Positions 5,347 to 12,687 of a stretch of DNA of 64,000 nucleotides are shown piece after piece (positions within the stretch are counted from its first letter, which is position 1; every line of letters begins with the position of its first letter). Both the position numbers and the translations under genes were made by a program. The stretch is from positions 1,289,001-1,353,000 of the forward strand of contig NC_019676.1 of NCBI RefSeq assembly GCF_000316625.1, read 5' to 3'. The notes under the pieces were generated by a model. It saw only the letters and a program-made list of their open reading frames with translations. It had not been told where the DNA came from and did not search any database. Source of the DNA: Nostoc sp. PCC 7107 (GTDB lineage Bacteria > Cyanobacteriota > Cyanobacteriia > Cyanobacteriales > Nostocaceae).

Positions 5347-7233
5347 TTACAGCTGCGGTACATACTGTTGTTTTTCGGGTACATCAGTGTATTCAGCCAC
5401 GATCTGACGAAATTCTTCGCCATCAATGGTTTCTTTTTCAATCAGCAAATCAACGATGCGGTCTGTCACAGTGCGATTTTCACGCATGATTTTCTTGGCA
5501 TTTTCATAGCATTCTTCAACGATCGCTCTTACTTGAGCATCAATTCGAGATGCGATCGCTTCAGAATATTCAGATCGAGTTGTCCAGTCACGACCAAGGA
5601 ATACTTCTCCTTGTTGGCTTTCCAAGGACAGAGGCCCTAAATCAGACATCCCAAACCGTGTTACCATCTGCCTTGCCATTCCAGACAATTGCTGCAAGTC
5701 TCCACCCGCACCAGTTGTCACTTCCGCCGCACCAAAAACTACTTCTTCCGCTGCACGACCACCCAAAGCGCCAGTAATTCTGGCTTTTAGTTGACTGCGG
5801 GAAATTAAGCCTTGTTCTTCGTTGGGGGTGAACCAAGTTAAACCCTGTGCTTGTCCCCGTGGAATCAAAGTTACTTTTTGTACTGGGTCATGGTCTTTGA
5901 GCAGAGTACCCACTAAAGCGTGACCAATTTCGTGGTAAGCAATTAAGCGTTTGCTCTTGCTATCTACTAAGGGTGTACCTTCCATCCCTGCAACTACACG
6001 GTCAACTGCATCATCTATTTCCCGCAGGGTGATGGCTTCCTTACGTCTTCTCGCTGTAAGAATTGCGGCTTCGTTGAGTAAGTTGGCTAAGTCAGCACCA
6101 GTAAACCCAGGAGTACGACGAGCGATCGCATCTAAAGAGACACTGGTGTCTAATTTTTTGTTGCGTGCATGAACGCTTAAAATTTCCAAACGGCCTTTGA
6201 TGTCTGGTGCATCGACAGTTACTTGTCTGTCAAAGCGTCCGGGACGCAACAAGGCTGAATCTAATACGTCAGGACGATTGGTAGCGGCAATAATGATGAT
6301 GCCTGTGTTACCTTCAAAACCATCCATTTCGGTCAGCAACTGGTTGAGGGTTTGTTCTCGTTCATCGTTACCGCCACCGATACCTGCACCCCGCTGTCTA
6401 CCCACAGCGTCGATTTCATCGATGAAGATGATACAGGGAGCATTATCTTTGGCTTTCTTAAACAAGTCGCGGACGCGGGAAGCACCCACACCAACGAACA
6501 TTTCCACAAATTCCGAACCGGAAATGCTGAAGAAAGGTACGCCAGCTTCCCCGGCGATCGCTTTTGCTAGTAAAGTTTTACCTGTACCTGGTGGCCCAAC
6601 TAACAACACACCTTTGGGAATGCGTGCGCCGACAGCAGTAAATCTTTCTGGCTGTTTCAAGAAGGTGACAACCTCTTGTAGTTCTTCTTTGGCTTCTTCA
6701 ATACCAGCCACGTCATCAAATTTCACCCCAGTTTTGGCTTCCATTTGAAAACGCGCTTTGGATTTCCCAAAGCTCATAGCTTGTCCAGGGCCACCAGGCA
6801 AGTTGCTGGAGCGCCGAAACAAAAAGAACAACCCAGTTATCAATAAAATTGGGAAAACAAGATTGCCTAATAATCCCCAAATTGCGCCATCATTACGCAT
6901 AGGGTGAGCATCAAAACTAATTTGTTTTTCTTTAAGCTTGCTAATTAACTCAGGCGCGCTAATTGGCAGATCTACCCGCCACCGCTGAATGCGATTTTCG
7001 ATATCAGGATCAACAGCTTCGACAATTGCTGTTCTACCGCCTTCATACAGATCTACGCTAGTGACGCGATCGGCATCCAAGTATTCTAGAAAACGGCCAT
7101 ACGTCATGCGGGTATTGGCGGTATTCTTACCCATATCCGCAGGAGCGCTCGCAAATGCTCCTTGCCAGAAGAAAAAGCCAATTACCAAAGCAGGCAATGT
7201 CCAGAGTACCAGGACTCTCCAAGAGAATTTCAT
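5347..7233 (-). CDS. ftsH: ATP-dependent zinc metalloprotease FtsH (intact, FtsH2-like)
   Basis: 628 residues starting at the ATG at 7233 ([10 protein letters not shown]), which has AGAGG about 9 bases upstream. An in-frame start 24 bases earlier is possible but has no such site. Membrane anchors lie at about 7-25 and 118-140, with a lumenal/periplasmic segment between them. The AAA+ domain has Walker A GPPGTGKT (213-220), Walker [10 protein letters not shown] and the second region of homology [17 protein letters not shown]. The protease domain has HEIGH at 434-438 and Asp512 as third zinc ligand, so it should be active. The N-terminus resembles Synechocystis FtsH2, the thylakoid protease that removes damaged D1. 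A paralogue lies in opposite orientation at 8771-10732. Confidence 0.95.
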
Positions 7234-7663
7234 CTTAATTTGCCTCTGCCAATACAATTAATCATTTCTAGTGACTTGATGGCTTGACATTTATCTGGGG
7301 AATCATCTTCCCCACGATATGCCTCACTTTGTCACTAGATTTAGTTTGCAACGGATGTTTATTAATCCATTTTGTTTAATTTGATGTCTAATCACGCGTC
7401 ACCATTAATTATGTGCCGATGAAAAGATTCTTAATTAAATTTAACTTAATTTTAATACAGCTTGGCTGAAGACAACAAAATTTAAGATGTAGAGGGCGAT
7501 CGCGGGTGGAGACGCTAAACCAGCGATATCGTTCACTGGGACTGCGATCGCGTAGTTTTGAGTAAAATAAACTGTCTACTCACTCCAGTAATCTAAATTT
7601 AACTCCGTAACAAAAAATACATTAAAAAATAGCTAATTACTAATAAAAAATGAATTTAATTAA
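7234..7663. other. intergenic between ftsH start and MITE-like repeat
   Basis: It holds the ftsH upstream region. The stretch is AT-rich, with HIP1-type GCGATCGC sites near 7497 and 7544. No open frame of interest and no clear sigma-70 box pair was picked out by eye. Confidence 0.4.
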
Positions 7664-7799: not shown

Positions 7800-8345
7800 T
7801 TAATTGATGCCTTGGAGTTTGCGAGTACTATCAACTAAGCTTTGAGCAAATTCGTCAAATCGTTGAGAGAGTTTTTCATCTAACAACTTACCTTCCGGGT
7901 TAAAAGCACTCCATGCTTGTCCAATGGCAATTTGTTCAGGAATTACCCAACCATGCACCCAGCGGACAATTAACCGTAAATCATTGAGAGCGTTGCTATT
8001 AGATTGACCTCCCAAAACGCTAATGAGTCCTGTAACTTTCCCTGAAAGTTCTGTAAAACTCATTAAATCAAGAGCATTTTTCAGCACGCCACTCACGCCA
8101 CCATGATACTCTGGTGTCGCCAAAATTAATCCGTTAGCACCACTGACAGTCTCACGTAAGCGCTGCACATCTGGATATTCTGGATATTCTTTTTCACCGT
8201 TGCAAAATGGTAGCTGTAATTGCCGTAAATCTAAAATTTCCACATCTGCGCCTATGGCTTCTAACCTTTTTGCTGCCACTTGTAAAGCTAACTGTGTATA
8301 GGAGTTATGTCTTAAGCTACCACCAATGCCCACAATCTTGACCAT
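7800..8345 (-). CDS. NAD(P)H-dependent FMN reductase family (flavodoxin-like fold)
   Basis: 181 residues from the ATG at 8345 (MVKIVGIGGSLR), with GGGGAA just upstream. The open frame extends further 5', but that extension has no family resemblance. GSLRHNSYTQLAL is the phosphate-binding loop of the NADPH-dependent FMN reductase family. PEYHGGVSGVLKNALD is its second conserved block (typical P-E-Y-x-x-x-x-x-x-L-K-N). GLISVLGGQSN follows. The protein is cytosolic and likely uses FMN to reduce quinones, azo compounds or flavin. It lies between the two divergent ftsH genes, and that neighbourhood does not identify a specific substrate. Confidence 0.88.
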   Translation of the reverse strand: MVKIVGIGGSLRHNSYTQLALQVAAKRLEAIGADVEILDLRQLQLPFCNGEKEYPEYPDVQRLRETVSGANGLILATPEYHGGVSGVLKNALDLMSFTELSGKVTGLISVLGGQSNSNALNDLRLIVRWVHGWVIPEQIAIGQAWSAFNPEGKLLDEKLSQRFDEFAQSLVDSTRKLQGIN

Positions 8346-8770
8346 AAATTCCCCGTCCATTACAAATATGAAGTCTGAAGCCTGAAAATTAAGAAAGAAT
8401 AATACTAATGAATTATCAGTATAGAAACATGATTGCAAGTCGTAGTCGTTACGACTATGTTTATCATAGCGAGTTATGGTTTTGCAGTCAAATTTGTTTA
8501 ATACCGAGTGATTAAAGAGAAAAAAATCAATAAAAACTGTACTAATGTTTATAGTCGGCCAAGCTTTGTTTATCAACATCCTACCCAGGAGTATAATTTA
8601 TCCCACTAAGATAGGATTCCTTGAGTAGCATGGGTAAAGAGAGTAGGGAATAGTTTTGTGATGAAGTTAGACTAGATAAAAACAGTCATTTCCAGTTATT
8701 GCAATTTTTGCTAGAAAAATAGGCATAAAACCAGCGCGAAGCTCATGCCAGCAGAACAAGGGTAAATAAT

Positions 8771-10732
8771 ATGAAAATTTTCAGGAGAAAGGCATTGATG
8801 CAACAGCGATCGCCCATAATCAAACCAACTACGGCCAAGCCAGAGTTAGGCAAAATGAACCAAAAGCGAACGCCCAAATCTGTTGCTTGGTCTGGGGCGC
8901 TAATCGCCAGTTTAATGATGTTGCCAAATATTCTTGGCGGTACACCTGCCTTGGCACAAAGAGCAGAGCGCGAAATAAGTTATGGTGAGTTGATTAAAAG
9001 AACCGAAAAAGGCGAAGTCAAAAAAGTCGAGTTAGACGAAACCGAACAAACAGCCAAAGTATATTTACAAGGGCAGAAGCCAGATACACCACCTCTACAA
9101 GTCAGGCTTTTAAATCAAAATACAGAGTTAATTAATAAACTCAAAGCGAAAAACGTCGATTTTGGTGAGGTGTCTTCAGCTAACAGTCGAGCCGCAGTCG
9201 GTTTGTTAATTAACCTGATGTGGATTTTGCCTTTAGTAGCTTTAATGTTACTATTCCTGCGTCGTTCGACAAATTCTTCTAGCCAAGCCATGAACTTTGG
9301 CAAATCCAGAGCGCGGTTTCAAATGGAAGCCAAAACCGGCGTAAAATTTGACGATGTGGCAGGTGTTGAAGAAGCTAAAGAAGAACTCCAAGAAGTCGTT
9401 ACTTTTTTGAAGCAGCCAGAAAGATTCACCGCTGTCGGCGCACGCATTCCTAAAGGTGTGTTGTTAGTTGGGCCGCCAGGAACAGGTAAAACCTTACTCG
9501 CAAAAGCGATCGCTGGGGAAGCTAGCGTACCATTTTTTAGTATTTCCGGCTCAGAATTTGTGGAAATGTTTGTTGGTGTGGGTGCTTCCCGTGTCCGCGA
9601 TTTGTTTAAGAAAGCCAAAGAAAATGCGCCCTGTCTAATATTTATTGATGAAATCGACGCTGTAGGTAGACAACGGGGTGCGGGTATTGGTGGCGGTAAC
9701 GATGAACGAGAACAAACTCTCAACCAGTTGCTGACCGAAATGGATGGTTTTGAAGGTAATACAGGCATCATTATTATTGCCGCTACCAACCGTCCCGATG
9801 TTTTAGACGCAGCCTTATTGCGTCCCGGACGTTTTGACAGACAAGTAATGGTTGATGCACCAGATTTAAAAGGGCGATTAGAAATATTGCAAGTTCACGC
9901 CCGTAATAAGAAAATTGACGAGAGTGTGTCATTAGATGCGATCGCTCGTCGCACACCTGGGTTTACTGGTGCAGATTTAGCCAACTTACTCAACGAAGCC
10001 GCCATTCTCACCGCCAGAAGACGCAAAGAGGCAATCACCATCTTAGAAATCAACGATGCAGTTGACCGAGTAGTTGCGGGGATGGAAGGTACACCCTTAG
10101 TAGATAGTAAAATTAAACGCTTAATTGGCTATCACGAAGTTGGCTATGCCATAGTCGGAACCTTGCTCAAAGACCATGACCCAGTACAAAAAGTATCCTT
10201 GATTCCGCGCGGACAATCACGGGGTTTAACTTGGTTCACTCCTGACGAAGAACATTTTTTAATGTCGCGATCGCAACTAAAAGCCAGAATTACCGCTGTC
10301 TTAGGTGGTAGAGCCGCCGAAGAAGTCATTTTTGGTTTACCGGAGATCACTGGCGGGATGCGCGAAAACCGCAAATTAGAATATGCTACATCCATAGCAC
10401 GGCAGATGGTGACACAGTATGGGATGTCGGAAATCGGGCAATTTTCCTTAGAAGCTCCCAACAGTGAAGTATTTCTGGGGCGTGACTGGATGAGCAAATC
10501 CGAATATTCCGAAGAAATTGCCTCTCAAATTGATCGGAAAGTACGGGAAATTGTCAGCCAATGCTATGACACCGCAAAACGCCTGATTCAAGAAAACCGC
10601 ACATTAGTTGACCATTTAGTAGAGACTTTGATTGAGCAAGAAACAATTGATGGAGAGCAATTTAGACAAATTGTCTCTGAACATCAGGATAAGCAAGTAG
10701 TGGATGCAGTGACTGTCGCTGTACCTAATTAA
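8771..10732 (+). CDS. FtsH-like AAA+ protein with broken zinc site (predicted pseudoprotease)
   Basis: 653 residues with a membrane anchor at about 40-57 and a second helix at about 141-163. The AAA+ module is intact: Walker A GPPGTGKT (234-241), Walker [10 protein letters not shown], and [17 protein letters not shown]. The protease domain is aligned over its whole length, but the zinc motif reads HEVGY (455-459) instead of HExxH. By gapless alignment to its neighbour, Lys535 stands where the Asp zinc ligand should be. Two of the three zinc ligands are thus lost while the frame and ATPase are kept. This resembles the FtsHi proteins of chloroplasts, which keep ATPase function without proteolysis. 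Inference: a membrane unfoldase, or a subunit that forms mixed hexamers with active FtsH. AAGGG lies upstream of the chosen ATG. Confidence 0.9.
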
Positions 10733-11413: not shown

Positions 11414-12687
11414 CTGAAGGGGTGACAAAAAAGTTATAAAGCAGACTGGATAAGAGTCATAGCCCGTAGACCTTGTTGAAAATATGGCAGTTTACTGGGC
11501 TTGAGGCGCATCAATTCATGAGCTAAATCAGCCCAAAATTCCATTGCCCCTACCCATAACTGACCATACAAACCAATCCAAAAAGCACTATGTCGGCGGT
11601 GCAATCGTTGTAACTCCTTCAGACGACCAACATATTTTTGTAGTCCAGAGGAGCGAGAATTACGACCAACTAAAATAGCACAAGTATAGGCAATAGCAAT
11701 TAATAAAATCAGTGCTATCAAACGTTGACCATCAGCATAAGTAGATTCGAGATTATACCCCCCAGTTTTACAATCTTTAAACATGGCTTCGATACCACTC
11801 CGCAACTTAAATGCTTTAATGGCATCTTTGAGACTATCAAGGTTAGTTAATAAAAACCAGCCAGCAGGCTCAACAACTCCACGATATTTGCGCTTGTAAT
11901 ATCCGGCGAGATTAAAAATTGGCAAACCCTTTCTGTTTAGTTGCTTGAATCCCTGTCAAAAAAAACGAGATGCCAGGAGTTAATCCCAAAGATTGTAAGC
12001 GTTGGTGTGATTGGTTTTCTTGCCGAATATAAGTACCTTGTTTCTGACGCAATACAAAGTCAATGCCCTTGCTATGTAACCAATTTGCTAGTTTTATACT
12101 GTGGAATTCTCTATCTCCCAGTACCAGCATTTGATATCCCTTAAATAACTGCAATAGTGGACGAATTAATTTTTTCTGCTCTCCCAAATTGCTACATCCT
12201 TTTTTAGGTAACAATAGCCAGTACACAGGTATTGCTCTTTTTTGTTCTATTAAACTAATTACAAATACATTTTGTGAACGCCATTGTGTTCTATCAATCG
12301 CAAATATTAGCCGTTTCTCTCCTCTTTTCAGACTATTTTTCACCCATCGTTTGAGCAGGGGAAACCACAGATATGGAATCGACAACTGAGGTAGTAGTAA
12401 AAAATCTTTGTATACTCCGCCTCCGACTTTCAAATTTTATCGGTTGTGGAAATACTGTTGCTAGTTTCTCAATTGTCACAGTTTTATGAAATTGCAATAG
12501 CATTAGTAAGATTTCTAGCATCTTGTACTGTGCGGGTGTCAGTACATTTTGAAAGCAGTTTTGGTAGAATTTAGGTAACATTATCATTTGATAGGTCTTG
12601 TTGAGAATACCTGACCTATCTTTTTTTACCCCAAAACGGTCACGCTCCTCTATTTTCTTGGCTTCAGCCGCTTTGTCACCCCTTCAG
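11414..12687 (-). mobile_element. IS4-family-like insertion sequence, copy A (1274 bp)
   Basis: It is bounded by perfect 16-bp inverted repeats CTGAAGGGGTGACAAA / TTTGTCACCCCTTCAG and flanked by a 9-bp duplication, GGAAAAGTA. The same element lies at 46571-47840 (1270 bp). The two copies appear identical except for four homopolymer runs, each one base longer here. The transposase runs on the minus strand and is broken in this copy. The intact 9-bp duplication shows that this copy arrived by transposition and has not recombined since. Confidence 0.93.
11434..12587 (-). pseudogene. IS4-type DDE transposase, copy A, frameshifted
   Basis: It would encode about 384 residues starting MIMLPKFYQN. 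Catalytic candidates are Asp in AIDRTQW, Asp in VLGDREFHS and Glu in SGIEAMFKDCKTGGY. The reading frame is broken twice relative to copy B: a run of 6 A at 12399-12404 (5 T in copy B at 46853-46857) and 5 A at 11914-11918 (4 T in copy B). A third run, 8 A at 11958-11965, is in frame here but out of frame in copy B, where it is 7. Full-length transposase is therefore not expected unless the run lengths are sequencing errors. Confidence 0.88.

Follow-up and report, generated by a model that had tools for sequence, protein, structure and literature searches.

A putative FtsH1-type subunit of Nostoc with a destroyed zinc site and intact ATPase motifs

In chloroplasts, FtsHi pseudo-proteases are important in vivo, according to PMC8197885 and PMC6460958. 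The same papers report a presumed inactive FtsH (FtsHi) in Prochlorococcus marinus SS120; the small survey involved lists no FtsHi in chlorophyll-a cyanobacteria, among which Synechocystis and Anabaena cylindrica are named. The H769Y mutant of FtsH12 retained import (PMC8197885). For the cyanobacterial proteases, PMC11287208 places FtsH1 and FtsH2, the most alike pair, in type B and FtsH3 in type A, with FtsH4 standing apart. FtsH1/3 and FtsH2/3 are described there as hetero-oligomers and FtsH4 as a homo-oligomer, and in Synechocystis FtsH1/3 is essential and acts as a protease that degrades Fur and controls nutrient regulators such as Fur. Inactive FtsH is thus already known in chloroplasts. 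Searches of an open-access library brought up no report of a dead-protease FtsH1 in Nostoc.

The gene lies in a window of 64,000 nucleotides from Nostoc sp. PCC 7107, to which the coordinates given below refer. The open reading frame at 8771..10732 (plus strand) starts with ATG, reads through without internal stops and encodes 653 amino acids followed by a stop codon. Pfam domains FtsH_ext, AAA, AAA_lid_3 and Peptidase_M41 were recognized, and the whole protein scored 773.7 bits against TIGR01241 (FtsH, AAA + M41), for which the curated cut-off is 600. The N-terminal part (residues 1-186, 8771..9328) holds the membrane anchor(s) and the extracytoplasmic domain, with FtsH_ext at residues 40-134, and the start region resembles the intact rows G004 and L115. 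The AAA+ ATPase module (residues 187-432, 9329..10066) contains AAA at residues 230-361 and AAA_lid_3 at 385-424. Within it, sequence comparison with G004, an intact relative from the same genus, located Walker A (GPPGTGKT, residues 234-241, 9470..9493), the pore loop FVG (residues 267-269, 9569..9577), Walker B (LIFIDE, residues 289-294, 9635..9652) and the second region of homology with the arginine fingers (residues 344-358, 9800..9844), all on the plus strand. Walker A, pore FVG, Walker B, sensor 1 and, in the arginine-finger region, LRPGRFDR are identical to those of G004, in agreement with the initial annotation, which had described a full-length frame with Walker A, Walker B and the arginine-finger region conserved.

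The M41 peptidase domain that follows is degenerate (residues 436-640, 10076..10690; Peptidase_M41 at 444-634, 213 bits). HEVGY replaces HExxH at residues 455-459 (10133..10147), where His455 and Glu456 are retained and the second His has become Tyr459; codon 459, at 10145-10147, reads TAT as had been reported. The third-ligand loop (residues 529-538, 10355..10384) is rewritten, with NRKLE in the loop and two extra residues relative to the intact neighbour ([11 protein letters not shown] versus [10 protein letters not shown]). Lys535 had been placed at the Asp position by gapless alignment. The loss of the Asp stands, but the alignment is not gapless: phmmer sets Lys535 opposite the lost ligand, whereas MAFFT sets Asn533 there and treats R534-K535 as the insertion. 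Under either alignment the third-ligand position is without Asp, so that the protein has neither the HExxH nor the third-ligand Asp of an active zinc protease. The product of 8771..10732 is a full-length FtsH in which the zinc site is destroyed and the ATPase motifs are intact; the loss of both ligands beside a preserved ATPase, as first proposed, is borne out by sequence comparison.

For the structure, a model of residues 186-640 with a mean pLDDT of 74 was used, an earlier model with a mean pLDDT of 50 having been set aside. The model has the FtsH fold, with a TMq of 0.83 to the deposited E. coli FtsH model (9a2p) and of 0.72-0.74 to a crystal structure of apo-FtsH (3kds). Against the remaining FtsH entries the TMq was about 0.5 and the rmsd near 10, because the domain arrangements differ.

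The source genome carries four FtsH genes, this one and three others, which are intact. The neighbour at 5347..7257 (minus strand) has HEIGH and the Asp and is most likely FtsH2. The dead protein is 68% identical to this neighbour, 55% to a 614-aa FtsH and 43% to a 656-aa FtsH among its own paralogues, and 68-74% identical to FtsH2-type proteins. Its nearest paralogue is thus the probable FtsH2, and an FtsH3-type gene is present and intact; all 11 genomes of the genus, and also G043, a genome discussed below, keep the FtsH3 type intact. Because this pattern of identities fits the account of type B in PMC11287208, the dead protein was concluded to be most probably an FtsH1-type (type-B) subunit. 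Identity with FtsH4 was considered and dropped on the four-paralogue comparison, FtsH1 and FtsH2 being the most alike pair and FtsH4 standing apart (PMC11287208). Note that in G009 the FtsH4-type gene occurs twice (G009:C129:92700-95100 and G009:C150:19700-22100), and each copy retains HEVGH as well as the Asp.

A divergent gene for an NADPH-dependent FMN reductase (7800..8579, minus strand) is found next to the ftsH1-type gene at 14 of the 16 loci that were compared. Its family accompanies dead and intact genes alike and is absent at the G006 and G043 loci; a second neighbour family is common to six of the 16, again dead and intact. Together these families suggest that one and the same locus is involved. 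At the G043 locus, no neighbour family is held in common with the 15 other loci. The persistence of the FMN reductase gene beside ftsH1 in rearranged surroundings may point to shared regulation. Downstream of the gene, at 11434-12433 (minus strand), there are open reading frame fragments that look transposase-like by eye; they are absent at the same place in G002 and are possibly a recent insertion.

An orthologue is present as a single ftsH1-type copy in each of the 11 genomes of the genus (Nostoc/Fortiea), the ten besides the source being 86-98% identical. Nine of these carry HE[VI]GY together with the rewritten NRKLE loop, and the other two, G003 and G004, keep HEVGH and the Asp; a dead FtsH1 is thus not required throughout the genus. 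The initial annotation had suggested a search for an orthologous group sharing Tyr at the second His; these nine genomes constitute one. It had also raised the prospects of a private mutation in one strain and of a CAT misread as TAT at 10145. A private mutation is ruled out by the finding of both ligand losses in nine of 11 genus assemblies, and for the same reason a sequencing error behind HEVGY and the missing Asp is very unlikely. In the dead gene of G001 the frame is broken near codon 35 (about 9180-9260 of locus L212), at a run of A whose length differs by one from that in G005; the assembly may be at fault here, or the change may be real.

Of 60 family genomes sampled, two of them in the genus, 59 gave a match. 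The exception, G017, is 99% complete and is the sole genome of the 60 without an FtsH1-/FtsH2-type match at E <= 1e-230. Outside the genus 57 family genes were read, of which 56 are intact and one, from G043, is dead, with HEVGK as its zinc motif and no Asp at the third-ligand place. For genus and family together, the second His is lost in 10 of 68 genes of the ftsH1 type and kept in 58. Larger sets were screened with a DNA pattern that required the codon of the second His not to start with C, and which is therefore blind to Gln, Leu, Pro, Arg and to changes in the other ligands. It matched 12 of 217 family genomes (nine genus genomes, G043 and two with non-FtsH genes) and nine of 388 class genomes, where FtsH was hit only in G000, the source genome, and G043. 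The other seven class matches, judged by eye at one locus per genome, were an oxidoreductase-like frame (G322), TPR-like frames (G207, G120, G242) and loci with no motif-bearing frame (G290, G147, G072). A dead-M41 profile, built from ten rows with G043 included, was run over 291 class genomes and gave 481 bits for G000, 401 for G043 and at most 342.2 for others among the matches listed.

Values of dN/dS were taken as medians of pairwise NG86 estimates. For the dead M41 the median is 0.082 (32 of 36 pairs used), and the same domain in 30 intact relatives has 0.081 (126 of 435 pairs); for AAA it is 0.012 in the dead genes (36 of 36 pairs) and 0.031 in the intact ones (150 of 435 pairs). The M41 of the genus FtsH2 gave 0.043 (53 of 55 pairs), so the rate of change in the dead M41 is roughly double that of the FtsH2 M41 in the same genomes. 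Since its median matches that of the intact relatives, purifying selection on the dead M41 is as strong as theirs and the domain is not drifting. The dN/dS calculation proposed at the outset thus returned a low value, and the low dN/dS, the group of nine sharing Tyr and the kept ATPase therefore bear out the early suggestion of selection for a non-proteolytic role.

Group-specific residues were sought over residues 60-653 against 69 comparison rows (58 intact FtsH1-type and 11 FtsH2-type). Seventeen columns, the two inserted residues among them, hold a residue that all nine dead genus proteins have and none of the 69 other rows has; every one of these columns falls in M41 or its tail, and none falls in AAA or in the N-terminal part (from residue 60). 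Six residues are common to all ten dead proteins, G043 included, and found in 0 of the 69. H495, F496 and M498 of HFLM (residues 495-498, 10253..10264) and I555, Q557 and F558 of IGQF (residues 555-558, 10433..10444), both on the plus strand, have this distribution.

We consider it rather probable that the dead protein is an FtsH1-type (type-B) subunit of the FtsH1/FtsH3 membrane complex that has been turned into a pseudo-protease. Its likely partner is FtsH3, encoded at another locus, because FtsH1 and FtsH2 each pair with FtsH3 according to PMC11287208. A non-cutting ATPase subunit paired with FtsH3 is expected given an FtsH1-type protein by paralogue pattern. By extrapolation from Synechocystis, the dead subunit would still join FtsH3 in a hexamer, would hydrolyse ATP and help to pull substrates through the pore, and FtsH3 would supply the cutting sites. 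About half of the proteolytic sites would be left, and degradation might become slower or more selective, or unfolded substrate might be released. Work by Zhang et al. 2010, reportedly on plant type-B FtsH to judge by its title, is taken as a precedent, and so is the H769Y mutant of FtsH12.

The protein might instead form its own homohexamer, a membrane-bound unfoldase/translocase without proteolysis, comparable to the chloroplast Ycf2-FtsHi motor. The combination of an intact ATPase and pore loop with a dead protease is compatible with this, and the fold search also matched chains of Ycf2-FtsHi motor complexes (8xku, 8xqw). We nonetheless regard it as unlikely: no dedicated partner gene stands out beside it, the compared neighbours varying between genomes except for the FMN reductase; PMC11287208 has the type-B subunits in hetero-oligomers with FtsH3; and the lack of group-specific residues outside M41 and its tail suggests that the old partners were kept. 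Mixing with the intact neighbour, the probable FtsH2, which the initial annotation had raised as a possibility, is less likely than pairing with FtsH3, and on our estimate is decidedly improbable. The two genes are adjacent and divergent in G000 and G002, and the identity to FtsH2-type proteins is 68-74%, but adjacency is found in only these two of 11 genus genomes, and FtsH2 is itself described as a partner of FtsH3 (PMC11287208).

Two further readings concern the domain itself, and we give both very little credence. If the gene were decaying and heading for loss, the broken frame close to the 5' end of the G001 gene and the long branch of the G043 gene would be in keeping; however, the match runs without a stop in eight of the nine dead genus genes, and pseudogene decay was rejected on dN/dS, at 0.08 for the dead domain and 0.012 for AAA. 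The protein could also still be a metalloprotease whose metal site is rearranged, with a side chain from the new loop joining His455 and Glu456. None of the 10 dead proteins has lost His455 or Glu456, and Glu532 is available in the new loop; against this, Tyr or Lys stands in place of the second His and the loop has lost its Asp. No M41 enzyme is known to work with such a rearranged site.

As to how the FtsH1-type subunit came by its dead domain, different markers give different trees of the genus. In the rpoB+gyrB tree (30 genomes; gyrB of 29), the two intact genomes, G003 and G004, branch apart from each other among the dead ones, and G043 sits with G023 and G034. The FtsH2 tree joins G003 and G004 inside the genus; the FtsH3 tree also pairs them and places the pair outside the nine dead genomes (SH-aLRT 90), a topology that would fit a single loss after this pair had split off. 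Note that G003 and G004, with intact FtsH1, have the most similar FtsH3 and FtsH2, yet rpoB and gyrB put G003 with G005 and G010; the FtsH subunits, or else rpoB and gyrB, were possibly exchanged jointly. Between G003 and G005/G010, dS is 0.61-0.76 in the N and AAA parts of the ftsH1-type gene, 0.53-0.64 for FtsH2 and 0.57-0.59 for FtsH3, and 0.21 over rpoB+gyrB, and G003 is nearest to G004 (dS 0.40 for FtsH2, 0.26 for FtsH3). A replaced ftsH1-type gene in G003 was considered and dropped, the G003 FtsH2 and FtsH3 being equally distant from G005/G010.

A comparison that is independent of the genome tree was made at codons for the same amino acid. When each of the nine dead genus genes was paired with each of the two intact ones, synonymous differences came to 0.28-0.38 in N+AAA versus 0.45-0.56 in M41 (18 pairs, Fisher p 0.038 to 4e-6). 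The ratio of M41 to N+AAA is at least 1.33 in 17 of these 18 pairs. Among pairs within set distance limits, which are not independent of one another, it reaches this value in one of 190 standard-standard, 0 of 22 variant-variant, one of 35 dead-dead, 0 of 68 genus intact-other intact standard and seven of 306 dead-other standard pairs. When the comparison was narrowed to codons that every standard and dead row conserves (73 in M41), dead-genus intact pairs gave a ratio of 1.49, standard-standard pairs 0.98 and dead-dead pairs 1.13; noise in this set is not small, because the single intact pair G003-G004 gives 1.34. The variant just mentioned is a second type of M41 on the FtsH1-type gene, present outside the genus in 22 of 57 family genes, with ligands intact and motifs such as NKVTIIPRS and GGASNDLK. 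Against the standard type its synonymous excess is confined to M41 in 20 of 21 pairs, and it is possibly another domain swap.

The contrast between the two parts of the gene suggests that the dead M41 is older in history than the rest and that the domain was replaced near the AAA/M41 junction. A chi-square break scan agrees with this only in part: the best break over all positions fell at codons 416-496 in nine of nine dead genes; with third positions it fell at 424-496 in six of nine and at 108-260 in three, and five intact control rows gave lower maxima (third positions). These breaks are without p values, each having been picked by its maximum. When the genus was constrained to one clade on M41, the AU test was not decisive (p 0.052 with amino acids and 0.515 with third positions). 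No foreign signature was seen in GC3.

In the M41 protein tree built without the zinc-site columns, the ten dead rows are joined (SH-aLRT 98), which together with the shared residues suggests common descent of the dead M41 of G043 and the genus. Placing G043 with G034 and G036 on M41 was not rejected with amino acids (AU p 0.128), so the two may also have arisen by convergence. With third positions this species grouping had the higher likelihood (AU p 0.664), and the third-position tree with G043 inside the dead group was set aside on that account. On N+AAA, the ten dead as one clade were not rejected (p 0.247; third positions 0.533). As a tentative reading, the protease half of FtsH1 could be an exchangeable cassette in Nostocaceae: an old dead M41 with its own conserved non-proteolytic job would have been joined through recombination to the FtsH1 ATPase already present in this genus, with a relative on the FtsH1 of G043, which belongs to a distant genus. 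If so, an exchange of domains, as opposed to gradual decay, would have switched FtsH1/3 from cutting to non-cutting. The initial annotation had counted two independent ligand losses. Both ligands are indeed lost, but two events need not be assumed, since M41 may have come as a unit.

The likeness to chloroplast FtsHi that was noticed at first holds in kind: at sequence level the Nostoc protein combines FtsH architecture, a lost zinc motif, a kept ATPase and selection. It shares with FtsHi1, 2, 4 and 5 of Arabidopsis the FtsH architecture, the mutated zinc motif and the presumed inactivity, but its site was lost in a narrow lineage beside three other, intact FtsH types, and the plant FtsHi proteins form the FtsH12 import motor. 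Its identity of 78-86% to 12 aligned intact Nostocaceae orthologues argues for an origin independent of plant FtsHi. With cyanobacterial FtsH1 (FtsH1/3) it shares the pattern of paralogue identities, one copy per genus genome and an intact FtsH3 type. The difference lies in the zinc site, lost here, where Synechocystis FtsH1/3 is described as a protease (PMC11287208). Like the presumed inactive FtsH of Prochlorococcus marinus SS120, it would be an FtsHi in a cyanobacterium (PMC6460958 and PMC8197885). The case suggests that the conversion of one FtsH protease subunit into a pure motor part, known from chloroplasts, is open to bacteria as well. Dead and intact FtsH1 within one genus offer a direct test of the shares of motor and protease in the type-B role, a question also raised for chloroplast FtsH, and the dead FtsH1 of Nostoc would provide a bacterial parallel, in chlorophyll-a cyanobacteria, for how the FtsHi motors could have begun.
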